Assembly: GCF_013408535.1 (NCBI RefSeq)
Contig: NZ_JACBZA010000001.1
Location: 6,780,850-6,844,849 of the forward strand
DNA: 64,000 nt
Direction of reading: 5' to 3'
DNA from: Actinopolymorpha cephalotaxi
GTDB lineage: Bacteria; Actinomycetota; Actinomycetes; Propionibacteriales; Actinopolymorphaceae
Below are positions 41,330 to 57,328 of this stretch, piece after piece. Position numbers and translations under genes: made by a program. Numbering within the stretch: position 1 is the first letter of the stretch; each line of letters starts with the position of its first letter. The notes beneath the pieces are model-generated. The model was given only the letters and a program-made list of their open reading frames with translations, did not search any database and was not told the DNA's origin.

Positions 41330-41405
41330 GCCAGCGTGGCGCAATTGGTAGCGCACCCGACTTGTAATCGGGCGGTTAGGGGTTCAAGTCCCCTCGCTGG
41401 CTCCA
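41330..41405 (+). tRNA. tRNA-Thr(UGU)
   Basis: The 76-nt cloverleaf has acceptor GCCAGCG/CGCTGGC, discriminator T, an encoded CCA (41403-41405), and anticodon loop CTTGTAA with anticodon TGT at 41363-41365, reading ACA. The T-arm GGGGTTCAAGTCCCC is normal. The 3' half, from the anticodon to the first C of CCA (41363-41403), is the attachment site copied at 57,220 and, more degraded, at 58,501. The gene is intact at the left end of the island. Confidence 0.97.
41363..41403 (+). other. Left attachment-site core (3' half of tRNA-Thr)
   Basis: 41 bases identical to 57220-57259 apart from one missing G. Similarity between the two ends continues for another ~100 bp beyond the tRNA. Confidence 0.85.
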
Positions 41406-41410
41406 CATGA

Positions 41411-41445
41411 AAGCCCAGGTCAGAAGCTTTTTCTGGCCTGGGCTT
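41411..41445 (+). terminator. Hairpin after tRNA-Thr
   Basis: A 15-bp stem with one mismatch (41411-41425 with 41431-41445), loop GCTTT. The same structure, with changes, follows the right-hand att copy at 57264-57302. Confidence 0.75.
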
Positions 41446-41472
41446 CATCTTTGCTCGGCGTGGCGTCTGTCA

Positions 41473-42771
41473 ATGGCGGCTGTCGATGAACGCGCTCACC
41501 GTATGGTTGCGAAGACGCGCGGTAGGCGCCGAGAACGCAGCTACCTGCGCCGGCGGGGCAACTCGTTCCAGGTGCTCGTCTACTCCGGTGTTTACCCGCT
41601 GACCGGCAAGGACAGCTACCTCACCGACTCGACGAAGAACGAGCGCCAGGTCGAGAAGATACAGACCCGGTTGCTCGCCCAGGTCGACCAACAGCGCCAG
41701 GCAACAACCAAGGCGACACCCGCGTACGTCCTCGACTCCTGGCTGGAGGTGCACGAAGCCGAACCCACAACTCTCGCCGGCTACCGCCGAGCAGCTGAGA
41801 TCCGCATCAAGCCGGCGCTGAGCCGAGTGCCGATCGCCAAGCTCACACCGCGCGTCCTGGAGCAGTTCTACGCAGAGCTGCGCCGGTGCAGGAACCGGTG
41901 CGACGGGTGGCCCTACGTCGAACACCGGACGAGTGAGCCGCACGACTGCGACGAGGACGACCGGACGACGCGCCGGCGGTGTCAGCCACACCAATGCCGG
42001 CCCTACGCCGCAGCGACGATCCGGGAGGCGCACGTCATCATTAGTGGTGCGTTGTCGACCGCGGTCCGGTGGGGCAGGCTCCAGAGCAATCCGACCGAGG
42101 TGACCAAGAAGCCGAAGCAGCCGAAGCCCCCGACACCGAAGCAAGCCGCGCAGCAGGTCGAGGCCGCGATGGCGCAGGACGAGTCGTGGGGAGCACTGGT
42201 CTGGCTCTACATGGTCACCGGCGCCCGCCGGGGCGAGGTTCTCGCTCTTCGGCGGCACGACGTACACCTCGACACCGGAATGCTCGAGATCCGCCGCAAC
42301 ATCGTCGACGGGATCGAGAAGGACACCAAGACCCACCAGATCCGCCGCATAGCGCTGGACGAGGGCACCTGCGACCTGCTGCGAGCCCATCGGAAGCGCT
42401 ACGAGAAGCAGGTCTGCGGCTTGGACGAGGAACCACGGGACGACGCCTTCGTCTTCTCCTACCAGGCCGACCACCGCCGCCCATGCGACCCGGACGGCGT
42501 AAGCCACCGCTACAAGACCATGTGCACGAGCCTGGGTATCGACAGCCACCTGCACGCACTACGGCACTACTCCGCGACGGAGCACATCACCGCCTGCGTC
42601 GATGTCCGCACGGTCGCCGGCCCCCTCGGACACGGCGGCGGCGGCACCACAACCCTGCGCGTTTACACGGCGTGGGTAGCCGAGTCCGACAAGCGGGCCG
42701 CGGAAGTCCTAGCTAGCAGCGTGGCGTCGGCGGTCCCGTCCGATTTGGTCAGGACGCCGCTTTTCAGCTAG
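41473..42771 (+). CDS. Tyrosine recombinase / phage-type integrase of the island
   Basis: This ~432-residue integrase has an N-terminal arm and core-binding domain (LDSWLEVHEAEPTTLAGYR) containing a Cys/His-rich insertion (RCRNRCDGW, HDCDEDD, RRRCQPHQC), then the catalytic domain with TGARRGEVLALR (first Arg), HALRHYSAT (HxxR) and LGHGGGGTTTLRVYTAW (His and Tyr). It would insert and excise the island at the adjacent tRNA-Thr. A truncated copy lies after the right att site at 57,329. No excisionase is seen. ATG 41473 is chosen because the duplicate copy conserves it. Confidence 0.9.
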   Translation: MAAVDERAHRMVAKTRGRRRERSYLRRRGNSFQVLVYSGVYPLTGKDSYLTDSTKNERQVEKIQTRLLAQVDQQRQATTKATPAYVLDSWLEVHEAEPTTLAGYRRAAEIRIKPALSRVPIAKLTPRVLEQFYAELRRCRNRCDGWPYVEHRTSEPHDCDEDDRTTRRRCQPHQCRPYAAATIREAHVIISGALSTAVRWGRLQSNPTEVTKKPKQPKPPTPKQAAQQVEAAMAQDESWGALVWLYMVTGARRGEVLALRRHDVHLDTGMLEIRRNIVDGIEKDTKTHQIRRIALDEGTCDLLRAHRKRYEKQVCGLDEEPRDDAFVFSYQADHRRPCDPDGVSHRYKTMCTSLGIDSHLHALRHYSATEHITACVDVRTVAGPLGHGGGGTTTLRVYTAWVAESDKRAAEVLASSVASAVPSDLVRTPLFS

Positions 42772-42812: not shown

Positions 42813-45185
42813 ATGCCTCGAGGGTCATCGGATGCCGCGTCCGTCTTCTTCGTCTATCCAGGTAAGCCTGCTCTCGCAGCTGAGGTGATGACGTCTGCTG
42901 CCAAGCTCATTGGTCAACGCGGTGGTCCGACCACAAGAACGTGGCAAGACCTAGAAGTGGATGGGCGTTTGGTTATCGACAGGGTGCTGGAAGCAATCTC
43001 GTCTGCCAGCGTGATCGTAGCTGACGTCGGTTCGATGAACAGCAATGTTCTCTTCGAGGTCGGATACGCTCTTGCCAGCAACAAGCAGCTCCTCCTGTGC
43101 CTAGACACCACTGACCAGAGCTGCATGCGCAACTGGCAGGAACTTGGCATCTTGTCTGGTATTGGCTTCACGGCACACGACGGAAATAGTGAGAATCTAG
43201 CCAAGGTCTACTTGGAGCAGCGACCCGAACTTCGTGAGGACCGCCTCTGGGAGGAACTACTAGTTGCAGGCGGGGTTGGACCTAGGGAATCACGATCGCT
43301 ATTCTATCTTCCGGTAGGCCTTCGCTCTGACGCGGAAAAGACGGTTGATCGACTACTCTCGGCTCGCCGTGATCTTTCAATCTACAATGTGGCAGAAGAA
43401 GAGCAGGGACTGGCCCCGCTTTCTTGGTACTCGGCGCGCATATACCGCTCAAGTGCCGCGTTAGTTCACCTTCGTTCTCCTTCACGAGTTAGGGCGACGG
43501 TGCATAATGCGAGAGCGAGTCTAATGGCTGGAATGGCGCACGCACTAAACGTGCCCACGTTGCTCATCGCTGACGAGCTGTTCGAGCCGCCGTTCGATTA
43601 TCAGGATCTTCTAATGCGTTACTCGTCCACGCGAAGGCTGAGCGAAAAGGTAGACAATTGGTTAGATGGACTTCCAATCGTCTCTAGAACTAAGACGCTC
43701 GGTCGAATGAGCCTTACGGCAGAGTTGCCCGTCCATCGTTTCGGCGAATACGTTGCCGAAAATGAACAAGATGAGCTTGCTGAATACTTCGTGGAGACCG
43801 GCCAGTATCGAGCTGTCCTAGCGAGTCAAACTGCAATTTTCGTAGGGCGTAAAGGTACAGGTAAAACCGCGAACATGCTTCAAGCGTCCGCGCAGCTAAG
43901 GAAAGATCGACGCAACCTAGTTACCGTTATTAAGCCGAGTGGATATGAACTCGAGAGCCTGATTGAGGTGCTATCACATTTACCGCGACGTGATGTTGCC
44001 GATTATCTCTTAGATGGCCTCTGGCGCTATATGCTCCTGACGGAGATTGCGGTAGCAGCCGTGCGAGAAGCCGAAGGTCGTGCAGCGGGAATTGCCACCG
44101 GCAGTCCTATGGAAGCGCTGCGCGCCTATCTGGACGACACTGGCATAGCAACCGATGCGAACTTCGCCATCCGCCTAGAGCACATCGTCAACGAACTCAT
44201 GGCCGAGCTTGCAAGTTTGCCATCCGGGGTTGCCGACGCCGAGGCATGGCTCGGCAAGCGACTATATGCGAGCATGCTCAATGACCTTCGGCGGGAGATG
44301 GGACACGCGCTCAAGGGGCGAAAGCGCGTCGCTGTGCTGATCGATAATCTAGACAAAGCGTGGGAGCGAAACGCAGATAGAGAGCAGCAGTCGCGCGTAA
44401 TTCTTGGCCTGCTCGGCGCAGTCGGCCGACTGGAACGTGAACTTCGTCGAGACGATGCATGGCGTGATCAGGTAAATGTGACACTTGCTGTATTTCTGCG
44501 GGCGGACATCTTCGATGTCGTCCGTCAGCACGCGCGCGAGCCTGATAAGATCTCTACTCTGCAAGTGCGCTGGGACGATCCAGAATTGCTTGCGCGAATA
44601 GTCGAGGATCGTTATGTGGCGATGCGCAATGATGAGGCTGAGCCGCACGAACTGTGGTCCGTCTTCTTTACACCTAAGGTCAAAGGACGGGACACTCGCA
44701 CACACCTGTTGTGGAGATCCCTGCCACGGCCTCGTGATCTAGTCTACTTATGCAACTCGTGCGTCTTGACCGCTATCAACAGGCGACGGTCATACGTTTC
44801 CGAGGAGGAGATACTAGCGGCTGAGGTCGACTATTCGCGTTTCGCCTTCGATGCGTTGATGGTAGAAGGTTCCACGTCCGAGGAGCTCGACAATGTCCTG
44901 CTCGAGTTTGCTAGCGCGGACCCCGTCATGCCCGTTTCTGAGGCAAAGTCACTAATTTCAAGTGCGGCGCCTGGGTCGGACGTCGACGAAATGTTCAGTC
45001 GTCTTCTACGTGCGAACTTCCTGGGCCTTGAAGTGGAGGTCGACCGCTACGATTATCCGGCGGAAGATCAGGCCAAGAAGCGGGCACTGGTGATGGCGAG
45101 GAAGCTTGAGAAGACGAAACGTCGTGAGCCTCGAGTGTCGGTACACCCCGCATTCCGTCCGTACCTCGAGATCAAGGACGACTAA
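42813..45185 (+). CDS. Predicted defence protein: tandem deoxyribosyltransferase/TIR-like domains plus P-loop ATPase
   Basis: This 790-residue protein has three parts. Residues ~10-130 are a nucleoside 2-deoxyribosyltransferase/TIR-like Rossmann domain with IVADVGSMNSNVLFEVGYA (Asp71, Asn78 and candidate catalytic Glu82). Residues ~160-255 look like a second copy (SSAALVHLR, MAGMAHALNVPTLLIA) lacking the Glu. Residues ~330-790 are a STAND-like P-loop ATPase of the Sll1717 type, with GRKGTGKT at 345-352, Walker B VLIDNLDKAW at ~508-517 and a helical C-terminus. Its GC is much lower than the host's (43% in a 60-base line I counted), so transfer is likely. A NAD/nucleotide-consuming or nucleotide-sensing antiviral role is inferred. 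It converges with the SLATT gene. Confidence 0.75.
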   Translation: MPRGSSDAASVFFVYPGKPALAAEVMTSAAKLIGQRGGPTTRTWQDLEVDGRLVIDRVLEAISSASVIVADVGSMNSNVLFEVGYALASNKQLLLCLDTTDQSCMRNWQELGILSGIGFTAHDGNSENLAKVYLEQRPELREDRLWEELLVAGGVGPRESRSLFYLPVGLRSDAEKTVDRLLSARRDLSIYNVAEEEQGLAPLSWYSARIYRSSAALVHLRSPSRVRATVHNARASLMAGMAHALNVPTLLIADELFEPPFDYQDLLMRYSSTRRLSEKVDNWLDGLPIVSRTKTLGRMSLTAELPVHRFGEYVAENEQDELAEYFVETGQYRAVLASQTAIFVGRKGTGKTANMLQASAQLRKDRRNLVTVIKPSGYELESLIEVLSHLPRRDVADYLLDGLWRYMLLTEIAVAAVREAEGRAAGIATGSPMEALRAYLDDTGIATDANFAIRLEHIVNELMAELASLPSGVADAEAWLGKRLYASMLNDLRREMGHALKGRKRVAVLIDNLDKAWERNADREQQSRVILGLLGAVGRLERELRRDDAWRDQVNVTLAVFLRADIFDVVRQHAREPDKISTLQVRWDDPELLARIVEDRYVAMRNDEAEPHELWSVFFTPKVKGRDTRTHLLWRSLPRPRDLVYLCNSCVLTAINRRRSYVSEEEILAAEVDYSRFAFDALMVEGSTSEELDNVLLEFASADPVMPVSEAKSLISSAAPGSDVDEMFSRLLRANFLGLEVEVDRYDYPAEDQAKKRALVMARKLEKTKRREPRVSVHPAFRPYLEIKDD

Positions 45186-45238
45186 AGTTCAGGGCGGTAA
45201 TTCCGCAAAGGACTAGAAGTCCGCGCATCGTCCACTGA

Positions 45239-46135
45239 CTACATTGTCGTAAAGGATCTTGAGCCATGCCACATGGTGTGTTCGCGGCTAATCGCTTCCT
45301 CTGTATCGGAGACTTCCGCTCCCCAACTTGGTTCGTCTTGCACTCGGTTCAGCCGCTCGCGAGCGACTGACAATTCACCGTGAGCGAAGGTGTAGGCCCG
45401 TGCGAGCGCCTCATGCTGGCAGACGGCAAGCCACGCGGCAGCTCCAGTCACGACAGACGCGGCGACGCTGGCTAGGTCTAAATGTATCCAGCCAGCGCCC
45501 CTTGCTACAGCTAGGATTATTGCTGCCAGCTCAGTGGAAAGCATTACCCCGCGCCAGACAGCGGAGCTGCGGGAATGTCGCCTTGCCTTAATCCTGTACC
45601 AAGCGCACTGTCCGTCGACCCGTTCGTTTATGTATATGGTTCGCCGTACATCGAGAGGCTCTTCCCGAAGCCTCAGCATTGCCTCAGTGATAACTGGTCC
45701 GCTGGACGGAAGGATGCCGGTAGCCGGAGCATCCTTTAGTAGCCTTTCGAGGCGATCGAGCAGGATGTCCTCTGCCAGCTGGTGGTCCTGTGCGAACGGG
45801 AGGCCGCAAACCGAGAAGCGCCAGGCTAAAGTCTTGACTGACTCCGCCACTGCGCGGCCGTCGTACCATCGCCGCTCGGGCCTAACCGCCCAAAGCCATG
45901 CCTCAACACCAAATATTAAGAGAAAAATTATCGCTACGACGAACGCGAGCTCACGGCTGCTATCGGCGAACACTACAGATACTGCCGCTGCAGCTATTGC
46001 TAGCACTGAACGAAGAGCAGTCGCCGTCAGGTAGCTGCCTTGCGCCGAGTTGGACGTGGTGTCTCCGGCGCTGTACAGGCTGGGCAGGTCTCCAGCGTTT
46101 GAGAGTGACCTATTCCTTCGGATAACGCGATCCAT
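45239..46135 (-). CDS. SLATT-type (DUF4231-like) four-TM predicted effector
   Basis: This 298-residue protein has two pairs of membrane helices: ~residues 38-58 and 62-84, then ~190-212 and 214-237. Each pair is followed by a long helical cytoplasmic segment (for example AVCQHEALARAYTFAHGELSVARERL). This double layout matches SLATT-domain proteins, which are predicted pore-forming effectors in nucleotide-signalling antiviral systems. It converges with the NDT/TIR-like ATPase gene, 53 bp between stops, and has similarly low GC for this window. Pairing with that gene as one system is inferred. Start ATG complement 46133-46135. Confidence 0.68.
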   Translation of the reverse strand: MDRVIRRNRSLSNAGDLPSLYSAGDTTSNSAQGSYLTATALRSVLAIAAAAVSVVFADSSRELAFVVAIIFLLIFGVEAWLWAVRPERRWYDGRAVAESVKTLAWRFSVCGLPFAQDHQLAEDILLDRLERLLKDAPATGILPSSGPVITEAMLRLREEPLDVRRTIYINERVDGQCAWYRIKARRHSRSSAVWRGVMLSTELAAIILAVARGAGWIHLDLASVAASVVTGAAAWLAVCQHEALARAYTFAHGELSVARERLNRVQDEPSWGAEVSDTEEAISREHTMWHGSRSFTTM

Positions 46136-48039: not shown

Positions 48040-48074
48040 CGGGAAGGCACCGTCCATGCGAGGGTCGGCCGTCG

Positions 48075-48162
48075 CAACGGGGCAACGGGGCAACGGGGCA
48101 ACGGGGCAACGGGGCAACGGGGCAACGGGGCAACGGGGCAACGGGGCAACGGGGCAACGGGG
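48075..48162 (+). repeat. Octamer tandem array (CAACGGGG x11)
   Basis: Eleven perfect head-to-tail copies of CAACGGGG with no interruption. The period is not a multiple of three, so three units make one 24-nt cycle and the array is open in several frames, which creates false long ORFs on both strands. It lies 213 bp before the NACHT gene start. Confidence 0.97.
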
Positions 48163-48375: not shown

Positions 48376-51279
48376 ATGGCTATCACTGAAGCGGTAATCG
48401 CGAAAATGCTTGGCGAGCTTGCGATGGTTGCGGCACGCCAGGTGGGACGGACACCGAAACCCGATTATTTGAATGTAGAAGACGTTGCCATCGCGGTCCG
48501 GGACGCTTCAGGCGAGATAGTTGGCCTCTTAGGCTCCAACCATATGCAGATATTTGTAAAATTTCTGAAGAGTCCGGAAGTTCAAGGGCTAATACGCTCC
48601 TATTTCCTATGCCAACTGGCTGAAAAAGACGGCTATCCGGTGACGGAAATCAGAGAGGACCTAAACAGAGCGTTTTGCCAACTTGCAAAACACCACAGCG
48701 ATGACGCAGATCCGTGGCACTCTATGGCGCCTGACGTATGGGACCGCCTAACCAATTTCGTGGACGAGGTGCTACCCGTAGCTGAGATCGTCGACGACGG
48801 TAGCCAGGACGATCTTGACGACCTTAGGAATCTGGTGGACGGGGCGCACGTCTCCGGCGAGCTTCGAACGACCCCTCCCCGATACCTGCGCGAAGTCGCT
48901 GACATCTCAGGCGACTTGACTAGACTTCTCACGATCAGTCAACACATCTCAGATATTAGACTTCAGCTGAGGGATCATTACTCGCAAATGAGATTGGAGC
49001 ACGCGCAAGAAGATCATCGATATGAAATGGCCGATCTCTATATTGAAAGGACGTTGTTATCCGAAAGAACTGGCCGCGACGTGGACAGCTCCCAACTGCT
49101 ACAGCCGGAGCGGCGGCTGAGGTGGATCGTCACAGGCGACCCAGGTGTCGGGAAGAGCACCTTCACGGAGCATGCAATTCGGACTATTTGTTCGAGACCC
49201 GAACTTGACATTGTGGCGCCACTTGTAATTAGGGGGCGTGAGTATGCAAGCAGTGGGTATCTTCCGCTTATTGACGAATTGCGCCGAGTCCTTTCGAAGC
49301 GCTTCAACCTCCGACTATCGACGGCTAGCGTCGAAGACATCTTGGTGATGGGGAGGGGAATTTTCGTCGTAGATGGTATCGATGAGGTTCTCGACCTAGG
49401 GCTCCGACGAGATCTTATACGCGAAATAGAGAGCTTCTCCCGCCAGTACCCACTGTGCACCGTCCTAGCTACTAGCCGTAACGTCGGATACGGTCAGGCT
49501 CGGTTTGATCACAAGTTTTTTGATCGCTACCATCTGAAGGCCTTCACCGACGAGCAAGTTCAAGACTACTCGGAGCGATGGTTCAAGCTTGTTGGACGGC
49601 CCAAAAGTGATCTGACAAAGTTCATTAGTGAACTCGAATCAATTCCAGATCTTCGGGCAAATCCATTGATGCTTTCCCTTCTCTGTATTCTTTTCAGAGC
49701 GCGAGGGTACATCCCTAGGAACAGGAGGCAGGTGTACGCGGCTTGTGCCGACCTCCTATTTCGTCGCTGGGATTCTATGCGTCATATAGCGCAGCCATAT
49801 GATCACGAACATTATGGCGAGACGTTAATGCAGGAGATTGCTGGATGGTTTTATAAAAGCAGAAGTGCGCAGAGTGGCGTAGAAGAGAGGCAGATCGAGA
49901 AGGTAATCAGTACGTTCTTCGTCGATACTGCGGGAGTTCTGCCGACCGAAGCGCAGAAGCGTGCGCGGGATTTCCTAGAGTTCTGCGCCGGCCGCGCGTG
50001 GCTATTGGCTGTTTCCGGTACCAATGACCGGAACCAAAGGTTGTTTGTTTTCACGCACCGTACCTTCATGGAGTTCTTCGCCGCCGAGTCTTTCGTGCGA
50101 GAAACTCAGAGCATCGATCAAATAATAGATCGAGTGGCCGAGGTTTATAGGCAAGATGCGAGTTCGGTATTGCCTGACTTGATTGTTCAGTCAGCCGAAG
50201 CTCATCGGAGCCACGGGGCGCGCGATATTATTGAGGGCCTTCTCGAACGAAAGTCCACTAAGGTCGCCGACCCCTTCCTGCCTCTATGTCTACGCATAAT
50301 CAATATCTCACCCGTGAATGCTGTGATCACGGAGAAGCTCTTTCGTCGGACTCTTGACCAGTGGCAACAATTCGGCCCAGATTTATTCTTGCCAACTTTT
50401 GTTGCCATTCTGGAACTTTACAGGGATCCTCGGCAGCGCTTCATCAATTTATTGACGTCTGATGTCGAAGAGCTCCAAGAGGAGGGCGTCGAAGGCTCTG
50501 AGATATTGAGCCGACCGGCAACGCAGTTTCTGCAACGATGGGCCAGGGTGTATCTAAGTGAAGGCGCCGTGAACTATCAAGAGGAGTGGGGCACTTTCGT
50601 AGCCGAGATCGCTGAAGTTGTCGCGGACTATGTCTCAGAAATTGATGACATGGCACTAATCCACTACCTCGTCGAAGCGGGGTTATGTACGTGGATGGAT
50701 GACCGTCCTCTGACTTTGACTACTAGAGCGTTCGGACACCCGGTAGCAGGCGCCACGCTACGTTCTTTCGAACGACTCCTATTGGGTAATCAACCGACCG
50801 AATACGACGCTCGACACTTACTCGGCGTGGCTGAATACCTACATGGAGCAGCTGGAGATGTAGTAACAGAAGAATTTGCTAGTGAACTCAATTCCGTCCT
50901 GCGAGATCGGGTTACGTCTTGGCCGCATCGCGGGGGCGCGGGGGTTCTAGAAACAGAGATGGAACCTGCGGTAAGTTCGCTAGGGCTGTGGATGGGATTT
51001 GTAACATACGAGTATTCCACTTCGGTCGGGCCATATCATGAGGCTTGCAGCGATTTACTGGGTGTCGAATTGCTATCGCTTTGTGTTACCCGGGGATATC
51101 TCCTAGGAGATCACGCTGGCGATCCAGAACAGTTGACAGATGGAAATATCCGAGTACTGAGCCTAACGGAATGTCGAGCGGAGCTCGCTGGGCCGCGCGA
51201 TTACCCGCATTGGTATGTCCGGTGGGCAAGGGGGGCTGTGCAGCTAGTGGAGTCTGAAGACGACGACGAAGACGATTAG
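48376..51279 (+). CDS. NACHT-type STAND NTPase, predicted antiviral sensor
   Basis: This 967-residue protein has ~240 residues of helical N-terminal domain with no recognised catalytic motif. The NACHT core has Walker A VTGDPGVGKST (Gly254-Thr262), Walker B IFVVDGIDEV (~329-338, with DGIDE typical of NACHT) and sensor VLATSRNVGY followed by YHLKAFTDEQV. A long helical C-terminal half probably senses a ligand and ends in an acidic tail (ESEDDDEDD). Bacterial NACHT proteins act as phage sensors. ATG 48376 was chosen because a GGGGGG ribosome-binding run lies just before it. Its low GC (50% in a 60-base line I counted) and rare codons suggest transfer. Confidence 0.85.
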   Translation: MAITEAVIAKMLGELAMVAARQVGRTPKPDYLNVEDVAIAVRDASGEIVGLLGSNHMQIFVKFLKSPEVQGLIRSYFLCQLAEKDGYPVTEIREDLNRAFCQLAKHHSDDADPWHSMAPDVWDRLTNFVDEVLPVAEIVDDGSQDDLDDLRNLVDGAHVSGELRTTPPRYLREVADISGDLTRLLTISQHISDIRLQLRDHYSQMRLEHAQEDHRYEMADLYIERTLLSERTGRDVDSSQLLQPERRLRWIVTGDPGVGKSTFTEHAIRTICSRPELDIVAPLVIRGREYASSGYLPLIDELRRVLSKRFNLRLSTASVEDILVMGRGIFVVDGIDEVLDLGLRRDLIREIESFSRQYPLCTVLATSRNVGYGQARFDHKFFDRYHLKAFTDEQVQDYSERWFKLVGRPKSDLTKFISELESIPDLRANPLMLSLLCILFRARGYIPRNRRQVYAACADLLFRRWDSMRHIAQPYDHEHYGETLMQEIAGWFYKSRSAQSGVEERQIEKVISTFFVDTAGVLPTEAQKRARDFLEFCAGRAWLLAVSGTNDRNQRLFVFTHRTFMEFFAAESFVRETQSIDQIIDRVAEVYRQDASSVLPDLIVQSAEAHRSHGARDIIEGLLERKSTKVADPFLPLCLRIINISPVNAVITEKLFRRTLDQWQQFGPDLFLPTFVAILELYRDPRQRFINLLTSDVEELQEEGVEGSEILSRPATQFLQRWARVYLSEGAVNYQEEWGTFVAEIAEVVADYVSEIDDMALIHYLVEAGLCTWMDDRPLTLTTRAFGHPVAGATLRSFERLLLGNQPTEYDARHLLGVAEYLHGAAGDVVTEEFASELNSVLRDRVTSWPHRGGAGVLETEMEPAVSSLGLWMGFVTYEYSTSVGPYHEACSDLLGVELLSLCVTRGYLLGDHAGDPEQLTDGNIRVLSLTECRAELAGPRDYPHWYVRWARGAVQLVESEDDDEDD

Positions 51280-51884: not shown

Positions 51885-52951
51885 TCACCAAAGAGACTCC
51901 ACGACCCTGTCGCCTCGGTCGCAATACTCGTCAAGCGCGGCTGCGGCGCGCTCCGCTGATCCATCGAAGAGCCCGGCCTTCAGGGGCGGCCAATTCGAAC
52001 CTTGCGCCTCGAACTCTGCTTGGATCCGGTGGTGTAGTGGGCGGTCCGAGTGTCGGTACCTCCAGGTGAACCGCCCGTACCACTGGCGGCCGACGTACCG
52101 GCTCTCCTTTTGTGCCTGGAGGTATGCATCAACGGCCAGCGCACCCAGAAGAACTTCCGTCTCATCGAACAAGTCACTGTAGTCTTCCTGGTCCGGCACA
52201 AGATCTTTTAACAGCGGCGCAAGCAGGTCGTGCAAGTGGTCTGAGATCGGCGTATGCCGCATGCCGCCACGCTGGAACCAGTCGGCAACAGCGCTGTCCT
52301 CGACCTTCGCCCCGTTGGTGGTGACCGCAAGGAGGTTCGCTGCGATCTTGAACGACTCGACGTAGTGCGGCGCCATGTAGCTGATGACCGAGTTGCGGTC
52401 GCGGTTGTACCGCACTGTCGGATCGACCGTGACCGCCTTGAGGGAGGTGTAGTTCTTCCGTGCCATTGCGCCGAGCGCGGCAGCGTACACGAGCGCCTGG
52501 ACCGGATACTCCTGTATGGCGAGCAGATAGGTGTTTCCCGACCTTGGCCCGTCCACCGTCGAGGCGACCGCCCGGACCGCCTGTGTCCAGAGGGCGGCAT
52601 GGTCGCCACTGCCCCACGCACAGCCGGTCACGAGGGCGCTCGCTAGCGGCTCTACGGTCAACCAATACGCGTTGAAGCGATCAACGACCCTGCGCGCGCT
52701 GGGCACGTCAGAGGTCAGGGCGATGTTTTCGGGGAAAAGCTCTTGGTTGCGGAGTTCAAAACGTGCCCGGTCAGCCTCGGACTGCACCAAATCGTGAAGC
52801 TCGATCTGCCGGCTCGGCTCCATCAGCATCGATTTGATGGCGGACGCGAGAAGTGAGCCGCGGGAGCCTTGATCGGCCTGGGTGAGCGACGCCTTGATGG
52901 ACGCGCTATCGACTGCTCCCTCACCCAGAATTCTAAGGACGGCGGTGACTA
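51885..52951 (-). pseudogene. TIR-domain gene, C-terminal part (split by IS5-family insertion)
   Basis: Continues the gene whose N-terminal part is 53881-54309. After the TA target copy the frame runs LVTAVLRILGEGAVDSASIK, then SLLASAIKSMLMEPSRQIEL to the stop at 51885. This part is ~354 residues, mostly helical (YPVQALVYAAALGAMARKNY, DEYCDRGDRVVESLW), with no recognised domain. Removing the insert and one TA gives 498 codons including the stop, with no frameshift, so the gene was whole before insertion. An internal ATG at 52829 could still permit a shorter product. Confidence 0.85.
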
Positions 52952-52992: not shown

Positions 52993-53415
52993 GTGTGGGT
53001 GGTTGGACGGGGTGAGGTTACTGACCGGGCGTGGGCGCGGATTGAGCCGTTGTTGCCGGACGCTGGAACGCCTGGTGGCAGGTGGCGTGACCATCGGCAG
53101 GTGGTCAACGCCATCTTGTGGAAGTTGCGTACCGGGGCGCCGTGGCGTGACCTGCCAGAACGCTACGGGCCATGGAAGACAGCCCATGAGCGGTTAAGGA
53201 AATGGACCGCGGACGGCACCTGGGACACGCTGATGAGCGAGGTCGTCACCAAGGACGACTCGATCGGTGAGGTCGAGTGGGTGATCAGCGTGGACTCCAC
53301 CTACATCCGGGCACACCAGCATGCTGCTGGGGCCCGGAAAAAGGGGGCTGCGCGAACTGGATCGAAGACCTCGCCATACCCGGAGAAGCCCTGGGCAGGT
53401 CCCGGGGCGGGCTGA
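52993..53415 (+). CDS. IS5-family transposase, first frame (element A)
   Basis: This ~140-residue frame has the DUF4096 N-terminal domain of IS5/IS427 transposases: EVTDRAWARIEPLLPDAGTP, WKLRTGAPWRDLPERYGPWK and the first catalytic Asp in VISVDSTYIRAHQHAAGARK. The second frame, -1 relative to this one, begins before it ends. A run GGAAAAAGGGGG (53337-53348) in the overlap is a good slippage site for a fused protein. Start GTG 52993 or ATG 52991 in another frame. Confidence 0.88.
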   Translation: MWVVGRGEVTDRAWARIEPLLPDAGTPGGRWRDHRQVVNAILWKLRTGAPWRDLPERYGPWKTAHERLRKWTADGTWDTLMSEVVTKDDSIGEVEWVISVDSTYIRAHQHAAGARKKGAARTGSKTSPYPEKPWAGPGAG

Positions 53416-53861
53416 CCAGCAAACTGCACCTGGCCGTCGACGGCGCCGGGCTGCCGGTCAGCGTGATCCTCACCCCGGGTCCGGCGGGTGACAACCCTCA
53501 ACTGCTGCCGCTGCTGGATGAGATCTCCGACCTGCGGATTGACGGGGTGCGGGTGCAGGTCGGGCGAGTGCTGGCCGACAAGGCCTACTCCCATCCCTCT
53601 ACCCGCAAAGCCTTACGGCGCAGGCGAATCAAGGTCACCATCCCCGAGCGGGCCGACCAGATCCAACGCCGCAAACAACGCGGCCAAGCCGGCGGGCGCC
53701 CACCAGCGTTCGACGCCGAGATCTACCGGGACCGCAACGTGGTCGAACGCTGCTTCAACCGCCTCAAGCAGTTCCGCGGCCTGGCCACCCGCTACGCCAA
53801 AAGAGCCGCCTACTACCGCTCCGAAGTCCTCATCGCCTGCCTCATCCTGCTCCTGCGATGA
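53277..53861 (+). CDS. IS5-family transposase, second frame (element A)
   Basis: The DDE core continues here: RGGLTSKLHLAVDGAGLPVS, VLADKAYSHPSTRKALRRR (second Asp) and RDRNVVERCFNRLKQFRGLA (catalytic Glu). It has no start codon or ribosome-binding site of its own at a sensible place and is expected to be made by -1 frameshifting from the first frame at the A/G run near 53,337. The frame begins ~140 nt before the first frame ends. Both frames look intact, so the element may still move. Confidence 0.88.
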   Translation: MGDQRGLHLHPGTPACCWGPEKGGCANWIEDLAIPGEALGRSRGGLTSKLHLAVDGAGLPVSVILTPGPAGDNPQLLPLLDEISDLRIDGVRVQVGRVLADKAYSHPSTRKALRRRRIKVTIPERADQIQRRKQRGQAGGRPPAFDAEIYRDRNVVERCFNRLKQFRGLATRYAKRAAYYRSEVLIACLILLLR

Positions 53862-53880
53862 AGATCCGCAGGACACGCCC

Positions 53881-54309
53881 TAGGCGGATCGTCTCGTCCT
53901 TGGCGTCTTCGCCGAAAAGGTCAACTCGCTGAAGCGAGTCGAGCGTGCGCCCCGCACCGAGGTCGTAGTCAGGAAGCTTGCAGTCGTCCAGGCGCACGGG
54001 GATCAGCCACACGCGTCCTGGGGGGTGCTGCCGGAACTGCTCCACCGCGAGGAGAAGTTCCTCGTGCTGGTAGGATTGGTCTCGAGCCTGGCTGCTACTA
54101 GAGAACACCGCGAGGAACGCTAGGGCGTTGCGCTGGATCGCCTTGCGGATGGTGAGTTTCCAGTCCTCTCCGGGCGACAGCTTCATCTTGTCGGTCCAGA
54201 CCGGGATGTCGGCCGCCTTCAGGGCGCTCACGATGTCCTGCATCCGGTCGACGTCCTCGCGGACGTAGGAAATGAAGGCGTGGCCGGCCGCCTCATTGGA
54301 GATCGTCAT
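53881..54309 (-). pseudogene. TIR-domain gene, N-terminal part (split by IS5-family insertion)
   Basis: The first ~142 residues are a TIR domain: GHAFISYVREDVDRMQDIVS (A strand and loop), DIPVWTDKMKLSPGEDWKLT, FLAVFSSSSQARDQSYQHEE with candidate catalytic Glu83/84, and VWLIPVRLDD. TIR proteins of bacterial defence systems usually degrade NAD or make cyclic ADP-ribose signals. The start is complement ATG 54307-54309. As it stands, translation runs 13 codons into the insertion sequence and stops, giving a TIR domain without its partner region. Confidence 0.85.
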
Positions 54310-54436
54310 GACGAGAACCCTAATGACGGGCACCGTGCGCCGTACACCTCCGGCGTATATACAGTCGCTTCGACCATGATTTGCCACGTGCATGCCGTGC
54401 CGATGCTCTACTCAGTTGGTCCGTTCGTAGGCGGCG

Positions 54437-57219: not shown

Positions 57220-57259
57220 TGTAATCGGGCGGTTAGGGTTCAAGTCCCCTCGCTGGCTC
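57220..57259 (+). other. Right attachment-site copy (3' half of tRNA-Thr)
   Basis: The 40-base copy of tRNA-Thr 41363-41403 with one G missing. It is followed by the same hairpin (57264-57302) and the same integrase start as at the left end, so it marks the boundary between the first island and an older element. Confidence 0.88.
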
Positions 57260-57328
57260 AACACGAAAGCCCAGGTCAGATGCCTTTTCTGGCCTGGGCT
57301 TCATCTTGCTCGGCACGGCCTGTTGTCA

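Follow-up and report, generated by a model that had tools for sequence, protein, structure and literature searches.

A member of an unnamed family of DrHyd-like Sll1717 ATPases and its tail-to-tail SLATT neighbour in an integrase island of Actinopolymorpha cephalotaxi

We analysed a 64,000-nucleotide stretch of the Actinopolymorpha cephalotaxi genome (contig NZ_JACBZA010000001.1; hereafter the window), in which the gene for a 790-aa P-loop ATPase (42813..45185, + strand) lies tail-to-tail with the gene for a 298-aa SLATT membrane protein (45239..46135, - strand), with a gap of 53 bp. The ATPase belongs to a family without a name, in which an N-terminal domain resembling nucleoside deoxyribosyltransferases (NDT) and DrHyd domains is followed by a second, probably degenerate domain and by an Sll1717 ATPase. 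The two genes lie in an island that is missing from the relatives searched, and tail-to-tail membrane neighbours recur at a minority of the loci of the ATPase family. Our preferred reading, held tentatively and at close to even chances, is that the protein is a self-standing immune-type DrHyd-ATPase that in some lineages is paired with a membrane effector, SLATT here and the membrane protein 8xMP elsewhere.

Architecture and spread of the ATPase family

A preliminary description of this locus had named the two convergent genes, their spacing, the residues D71, N78 and E82 and a GRKGTGKT motif, all of which are present. Domain 1 (approximately residues 8-150; 42834..43262, + strand) is NDT/DrHyd-like, and its residues W44, G51, N78 and E82 are invariant. 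E82 lies in the motif N-x-NVLFE-G-A, aligns with the Glu of DNPH1 and was found in every row of both alignments (21/21 in alignment A3, 19/19 in A1), while position 71 is D in 15, E in 5 and N in 1 of the 21 rows of A3. The Glu of this motif is presumably the nucleophile. The Pfam model Nuc_deoxyrib_tr (PF05014) matched 14/21 family members at E<=0.01 (best 1.7e-7); the window protein itself gave E 0.0028 and 18.2 bits, below the cut-off of 28.8. A profile of the ATPase family also matched DNPH1 structures (best E 5e-5). Across the family, NDT-type profiles thus do recognise the first of the two tandem NDT/TIR-like domains that had been proposed, in the window protein below the Pfam cut-off.

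Domain 2 (approximately residues 155-300; 43275..43712, + strand) has no Glu at the corresponding place, and G240 and D262 are invariant. It aligned with domain 1 in register but weakly (hhalign E 0.0025, compared with 0.0068-0.32 for seven ATPase-segment controls and 0.15-0.87 for ten column shuffles). Its kinship with domain 1 is thus suggestive, and from these alignments we regard it as probably a degenerate copy.

The remainder of the protein (residues 310-785; 43740..45167, + strand) matched the Sll1717 P-loop ATPase family of NCBIfam (NF047389, E 4.9e-85, 286.3 bits versus a cut-off of 75), with the Walker A motif GRKGTGKT at residues 345-352. Residues of this module that are invariant in A3 include K351, D511, N512 and D514 (21/21 for these four), R563, D565, R600 and R641. 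The ORC-CDC6-like model of Pfam came near, below its cut-off. The module had earlier been called a STAND ATPase; the P-loop ATPase stands, but we rejected the STAND label, as the Pfam matches of this protein with E up to 1 included no STAND or NACHT model. In the family, nSTAND_NTPase5 and NACHT matched 1/21 members each.

Compared with known systems, the window protein shares the ATPase with the Sll1717 family, whose 454-position model covers the ATPase only, without the two N-terminal domains. With NDT and DNPH1 (PF05014), members of the TIR-DrHyd-SLOG class, it shares the Glu motif; it differs in scoring below the Pfam cut-off and in being fused to an ATPase, and its N-glycosidase role is a prediction. 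According to PMC9503650, TIR, DrHyd and SLOG belong together in a single class of domains that bind or process nucleotides, and iSTAND proteins with N-terminal DRHyd or TIR domains are reported in PMC7159879. The preprint PMC13174449 describes DUF4062, related to TIR and NDT, as an NADase in phage defence; proteins with DUF4062 include Swarozyc and human NWD1 and TEP1, in which it stands next to NACHT. As a model of how the window protein may work, these are likewise TIR/NDT-like enzymes with a conserved Glu, some of them beside an ATPase, whereas the window protein had no DUF4062 match up to E 1 and carries an Sll1717 rather than a NACHT ATPase. Residues 310-372, where the ATPase begins, also resemble the anti-phage protein DS-41 (NF053860, E 8.8e-13; DefensePredictor paper, PMC13092281), but with 48 bits, far short of the required 370, the window protein is not a member. 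As for Thoeris, neither protein matched ThsB_TIR, the nearby TIR gene is of the TIR_2 type (53842-54393), and ThsA was not searched for.

Full-length homologues of the ATPase were found in Actinomycetota, Gemmatimonadota, Poribacteria, Stahlbacteria, Cyanobacteriota, Spirochaetota and Pseudomonadota; the family is seen in at least six phyla. Among the plasmid records that topped the match list, 10/13 were annotated as 'hypothetical protein' and 3/13 as nucleoside 2-deoxyribosyltransferase. No homologue was found in phage records, and PADLOC (2023) assigned the ATPase to no system (best E 0.041, a TIR effector model). In a limited literature survey on NDT in phage defence, Sll1717, DrHyd-SLATT and SLATT-TIR, we did not recognise the architecture among the matches listed.

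For the comparison of neighbourhoods we used 35 other loci having both the N-terminal region and the ATPase: L002-L013, L101, L141-L143, L151-L152, eight plasmid regions (L022-L029, from 130 plasmid records with any match) and the 9/19 virus-like contigs with both parts (L030-L038). Four pairs of entries that are the same places were counted once (L002/L139, L003/L150, L004/L140 and L101/L117), and L059/G021 was dropped since a contig end cuts its ATPase. The flanks ranged from ~0.2 to 8 kb; at L013, L037 and L038 only ~0.6, ~0.3 and ~0.2 kb were available on the 3' side, so that a neighbour could be missed there.

Membrane neighbours of the ATPase and partners of SLATT

The SLATT protein, which had been described as a four-transmembrane SLATT-like protein, matched Pfam SLATT_3 (E 2e-37, 129 bits) and SLATT_1 (E 3e-31, 108 bits) far above the cut-off of 26.3, and has four hydrophobic stretches beginning at residues 39, 63, 193 and 221. 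PADLOC (2023) gave no match for it. In PMC9503650, SLATT is predicted to be a membrane effector regulated by ADP-ribose derivatives, with signal-gated membrane permeability.

We compared 35 other SLATT loci: 23 from a class sample of 394 genomes (24 with the host genome), 10 plasmid regions, L032 and L056. The plasmid regions were 11 taken from 69 records, less L062, whose SLATT gene is cut by the record end. Two pairs of loci (L055/L064 and L050/L051) are near-copies of each other, and the call at L106 is one of overlapping frames. SLATT_3-SLATT_1 has a TIR or SLOG-like gene next to it in 28/35 of these loci. In 17/35 the partner is tail-to-tail (6 TIR and 11 SLOG-like, gaps ~18-241 bp), and the 11 SLOG-like cases form one clade in one family. 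The name SLOG-like, which we give to the partner at 13 actinobacterial loci, is our own assumption from the motif alone; searches of Pfam, NCBIfam and PDB with the members scanned returned nothing of that kind. In a tree that left out the weak or partial members L108-L110, the window SLATT fell next to L096 in a clade of seven, five rows of which are TIR-paired (support 95/92); since this clade is mainly TIR-paired, the lineage of the window SLATT probably was so too. In the window, the tail-to-tail slot is occupied by the DrHyd-ATPase. The arrangement is thus like that of the TIR-SLATT and SLOG-like-SLATT pairs, in which SLATT_3-SLATT_1 lies tail-to-tail with a TIR-class gene, and unlike them in that the partner is a DrHyd-ATPase and no TIR gene adjoins.

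Viewed from the ATPase, SLATT is not a regular neighbour, and we rejected it as such: SLATT_3-SLATT_1 was found near the ATPase at 2/35 other loci, each with a ThsB-type TIR beside it. At L032, TPR-S and ThsB_TIR genes lie between ATPase and SLATT, and at L101 the intervening gene has a weak ThsB-type TIR match (Pfam E 0.054). Another membrane protein, 8xMP, stands directly beside the ATPase (<60 bp) at 4/35 loci, tail-to-tail at L023 (gap 43 bp), L151 (12 bp) and L152 (23 bp) and on the same strand at L006 (39 bp); L031 has a sub-threshold 8xMP upstream. On a quick tree of 33 rows, from which the broken-frame loci L013, L022 and L028 were omitted, the starred branches imply that the immediate membrane neighbour was gained or lost at least three times. 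SLATT and 8xMP belong to different families, which makes more than a single origin of the membrane neighbour likely. A literature search on 8xMP returned nothing relevant. To our knowledge, the activating signals of SLATT and 8xMP proteins are mostly unknown.

Several results weigh against a pairing of the ATPase with membrane effectors. In the flanks examined, 28/35 ATPase loci have neither SLATT nor 8xMP, among them the closest relatives of the window ATPase (L002 and L004, 62-63% identity); no TIR or SLOG-like gene adjoins the closest SLATT (L096, 44%); and two of the four 8xMP loci, L151 and L152, are from one genus. None of 19 control loci with Sll1717 ATPases and no detected DrHyd (L120-L138, flanks up to 1.5 kb, some cut by contig ends) had a membrane neighbour, and the difference is not significant (5/36 with the window versus 0/19, Fisher p 0.15; 4/35 without it, p 0.29). 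Homology of 8xMP to SLATT was not established by hhalign (E 0.017-0.025; 0.0022 for one half in an earlier three-row test), and we do not treat 8xMP as a SLATT homologue.

Co-occurrence was counted in the class sample without the host genome, which had been selected for having both families. The whole ATPase occurs in 6 genomes, SLATT in 23 and both in 2 (hypergeometric p 0.04), and the two lie within 1 kb of each other in 1 genome. Random placement within 4 kb would give 0.0004 adjoining cases; if genes cluster 50-fold, a factor that is our assumption, the chance of at least one case becomes 0.02.

No conserved non-membrane neighbour of the ATPase was detected. An all-against-all comparison of flanking open reading frames from 29 loci gave no family present at more than two loci, and Pfam and PADLOC scans of 150/157 flanking frames from 33 loci (>=100 aa, within 2.5 kb, composition filter passed; L151 and L152 not included) gave no family in more than four frames. 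The seven frames omitted were five phage-structural-looking and two short ones. Some neighbours match TIR, restriction or DISARM-type (Drm) models. At L151 and L152 a ~1030-aa protein lies on the other side of the ATPase, with PLD, helicase and DUF3427 matches in L151.

Among the SLATT loci, a family with the motif GxTGHR...GADQxFA...AVWDGxPARGxGGT lies tail-to-tail with SLATT at 11 actinobacterial loci (L090-L095, L098, L105, L107, L111 and L112), and the members scanned had no convincing match in Pfam, NCBIfam or PDB. Tail-to-tail SLATT/TIR pairs were also seen on the enterobacterial plasmids L061 (<6 kb), L064 and L055, with gaps of 28, 38 and 112 bp. At L103, where no TIR or SLOG-like gene was detected, SLATT stands beside an ATPase with a KGGVGR motif (NCBIfam NF047398, E 1.5e-35). 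A scan of viral contigs for SLATT confirmed nothing.

The island and alternative readings

The genome is a single contig of 6.86 Mb with the window close to its end, and the location of the two genes in an integrase island agrees with the preliminary description. A tRNA-Thr gene (TGT; ARAGORN, 41330..41405, + strand), the probable attachment site, is followed immediately at its 3' side by a tyrosine integrase gene (41407..42771, + strand; Pfam Phage_integrase E 1e-14). An attR-like imperfect copy of the 3' half of the tRNA and the bases that follow lies at 57220..57307 (+ strand, from repeat comparison). The island ends are thus imperfect repeats starting at ~41363 and ~57220, giving an island of ~15.9 kb. 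The ATPase and SLATT genes do have a GC content (0.554 and 0.582) below that of the host (0.719 for window positions 1-41000). This shared low GC had been taken as support for their pairing; however, the integrase (0.663), a NACHT gene (0.526) and the PDC-S65 region (0.628) of the island are low too, so the composition is not specific to the pair and we rejected it as evidence. The 7 remaining genomes of the host's family yielded neither of the two protein families, in keeping with horizontal acquisition. The NACHT-domain protein (48388-51279; Pfam NACHT E 4.8e-7, above cut-off) had a best PADLOC match of E 0.061 only, and upstream of its gene, positions 48074-48162 consist of 11.1 perfect tandem copies of GCAACGGG.

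The same island holds the TIR_2 gene (E 2.4e-20), which brings in the main alternative. SLATT may be a bystander, either a partnerless remnant of a TIR-SLATT pair or a protein that belongs with this TIR gene, while the ATPase acts alone; we regard this as a serious possibility, though short of even. The TIR_2 gene shares 40% identity with the N-terminal end of a TIR protein of 508 aa on the Rhodococcus plasmid L049, and the PDC-S65 region (51885-52829) matches the C-terminal part of the same protein (28% identity); transposase-like frames (52993-53861, judged by eye) separate the two. On L049 the 508-aa protein lies 1.5 kb from a SLATT gene that also has a tail-to-tail TIR. With this proximity and the split TIR parts in the window, the window SLATT could be a leftover of a TIR system. 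It also nests among TIR-paired SLATTs, 33/35 ATPase loci lack SLATT in their flanks, and SLATTs without a TIR or SLOG-like neighbour do exist (L096 and 6 others of 35). However, more than 7 kb separate SLATT from the TIR gene, and the only TIR-class match close to SLATT is the DrHyd domain, which occupies the usual tail-to-tail position. A membrane protein also lies tail-to-tail right beside the ATPase at three other loci. Taking together the tail-to-tail place, the habit of the SLATT family and the parallel with 8xMP, we give modular pairing and a bystander SLATT roughly equal odds.

An abortive-infection system of two dedicated genes, as the preliminary description had suggested, with the DrHyd-ATPase producing a signal for which SLATT would be the obligate pore, appears unlikely. 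Adjacency and the effector prediction in PMC9503650 speak for it, but most ATPase homologues lack SLATT and neither gene was found in the 7 related genomes. The idea of a two-gene unit is thus plausible as a version of a modular arrangement (partners at 28/35 SLATT loci, 8xMP at 4/35 ATPase loci), whereas an obligate pair, or a conserved ATPase-SLATT adjacency, is not borne out at 2/35. A non-immune maintenance or competition factor of mobile elements with domain 1 as a nucleotide sensor is very improbable: many homologues are on plasmids and virus-like contigs (the collections searched hold only such records), the ATPase of L023 directly follows a relaxase gene and ORC-CDC6-like is among the nearest Pfam names (7/21 members), but domain 1 has an invariant catalytic-type Glu and some neighbours match TIR, restriction or Drm models.

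Proposed mechanism and its meaning

For a self-standing DrHyd-ATPase with optional membrane effectors, we infer the following course of events. The ORC/CDC6-like AAA+ module would sense an invader and oligomerise on ATP, which would license the N-terminal DrHyd domain to act as an N-glycosidase with E82 as the nucleophile, while the degenerate second domain may bind nucleotide or serve as a scaffold. The enzyme would cleave NAD+ or another (deoxy)nucleotide and halt growth. The small tail-to-tail membrane protein, SLATT or 8xMP, would probably be an added effector that responds to the product. Defence, catalysis, substrate, sensing, signalling and the assignment of SLATT to the ATPase are all predicted here from domains and neighbourhoods.

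A bolder version is that the DrHyd-Sll1717 ATPases as a whole are an immune family still without a name: assembly of the AAA+ module would activate DrHyd, and the product would open interchangeable small membrane effectors encoded tail-to-tail, SLATT in one lineage and 8xMP in others. We find this version doubtful. If it were true, DrHyd would be the third enzyme class feeding SLATT-type effectors, after TIR and SLOG-like proteins. The recurring tail-to-tail arrangement can serve as a simple, testable guide to the partners of SLATT and 8xMP proteins. The ATPase family spans at least six phyla and keeps an invariant catalytic-type Glu, and it has no PADLOC match; if its members are ATP-gated nucleotide hydrolases, they would be a bacterial parallel to those animal proteins in which a TIR-like enzyme and an ATPase are joined.

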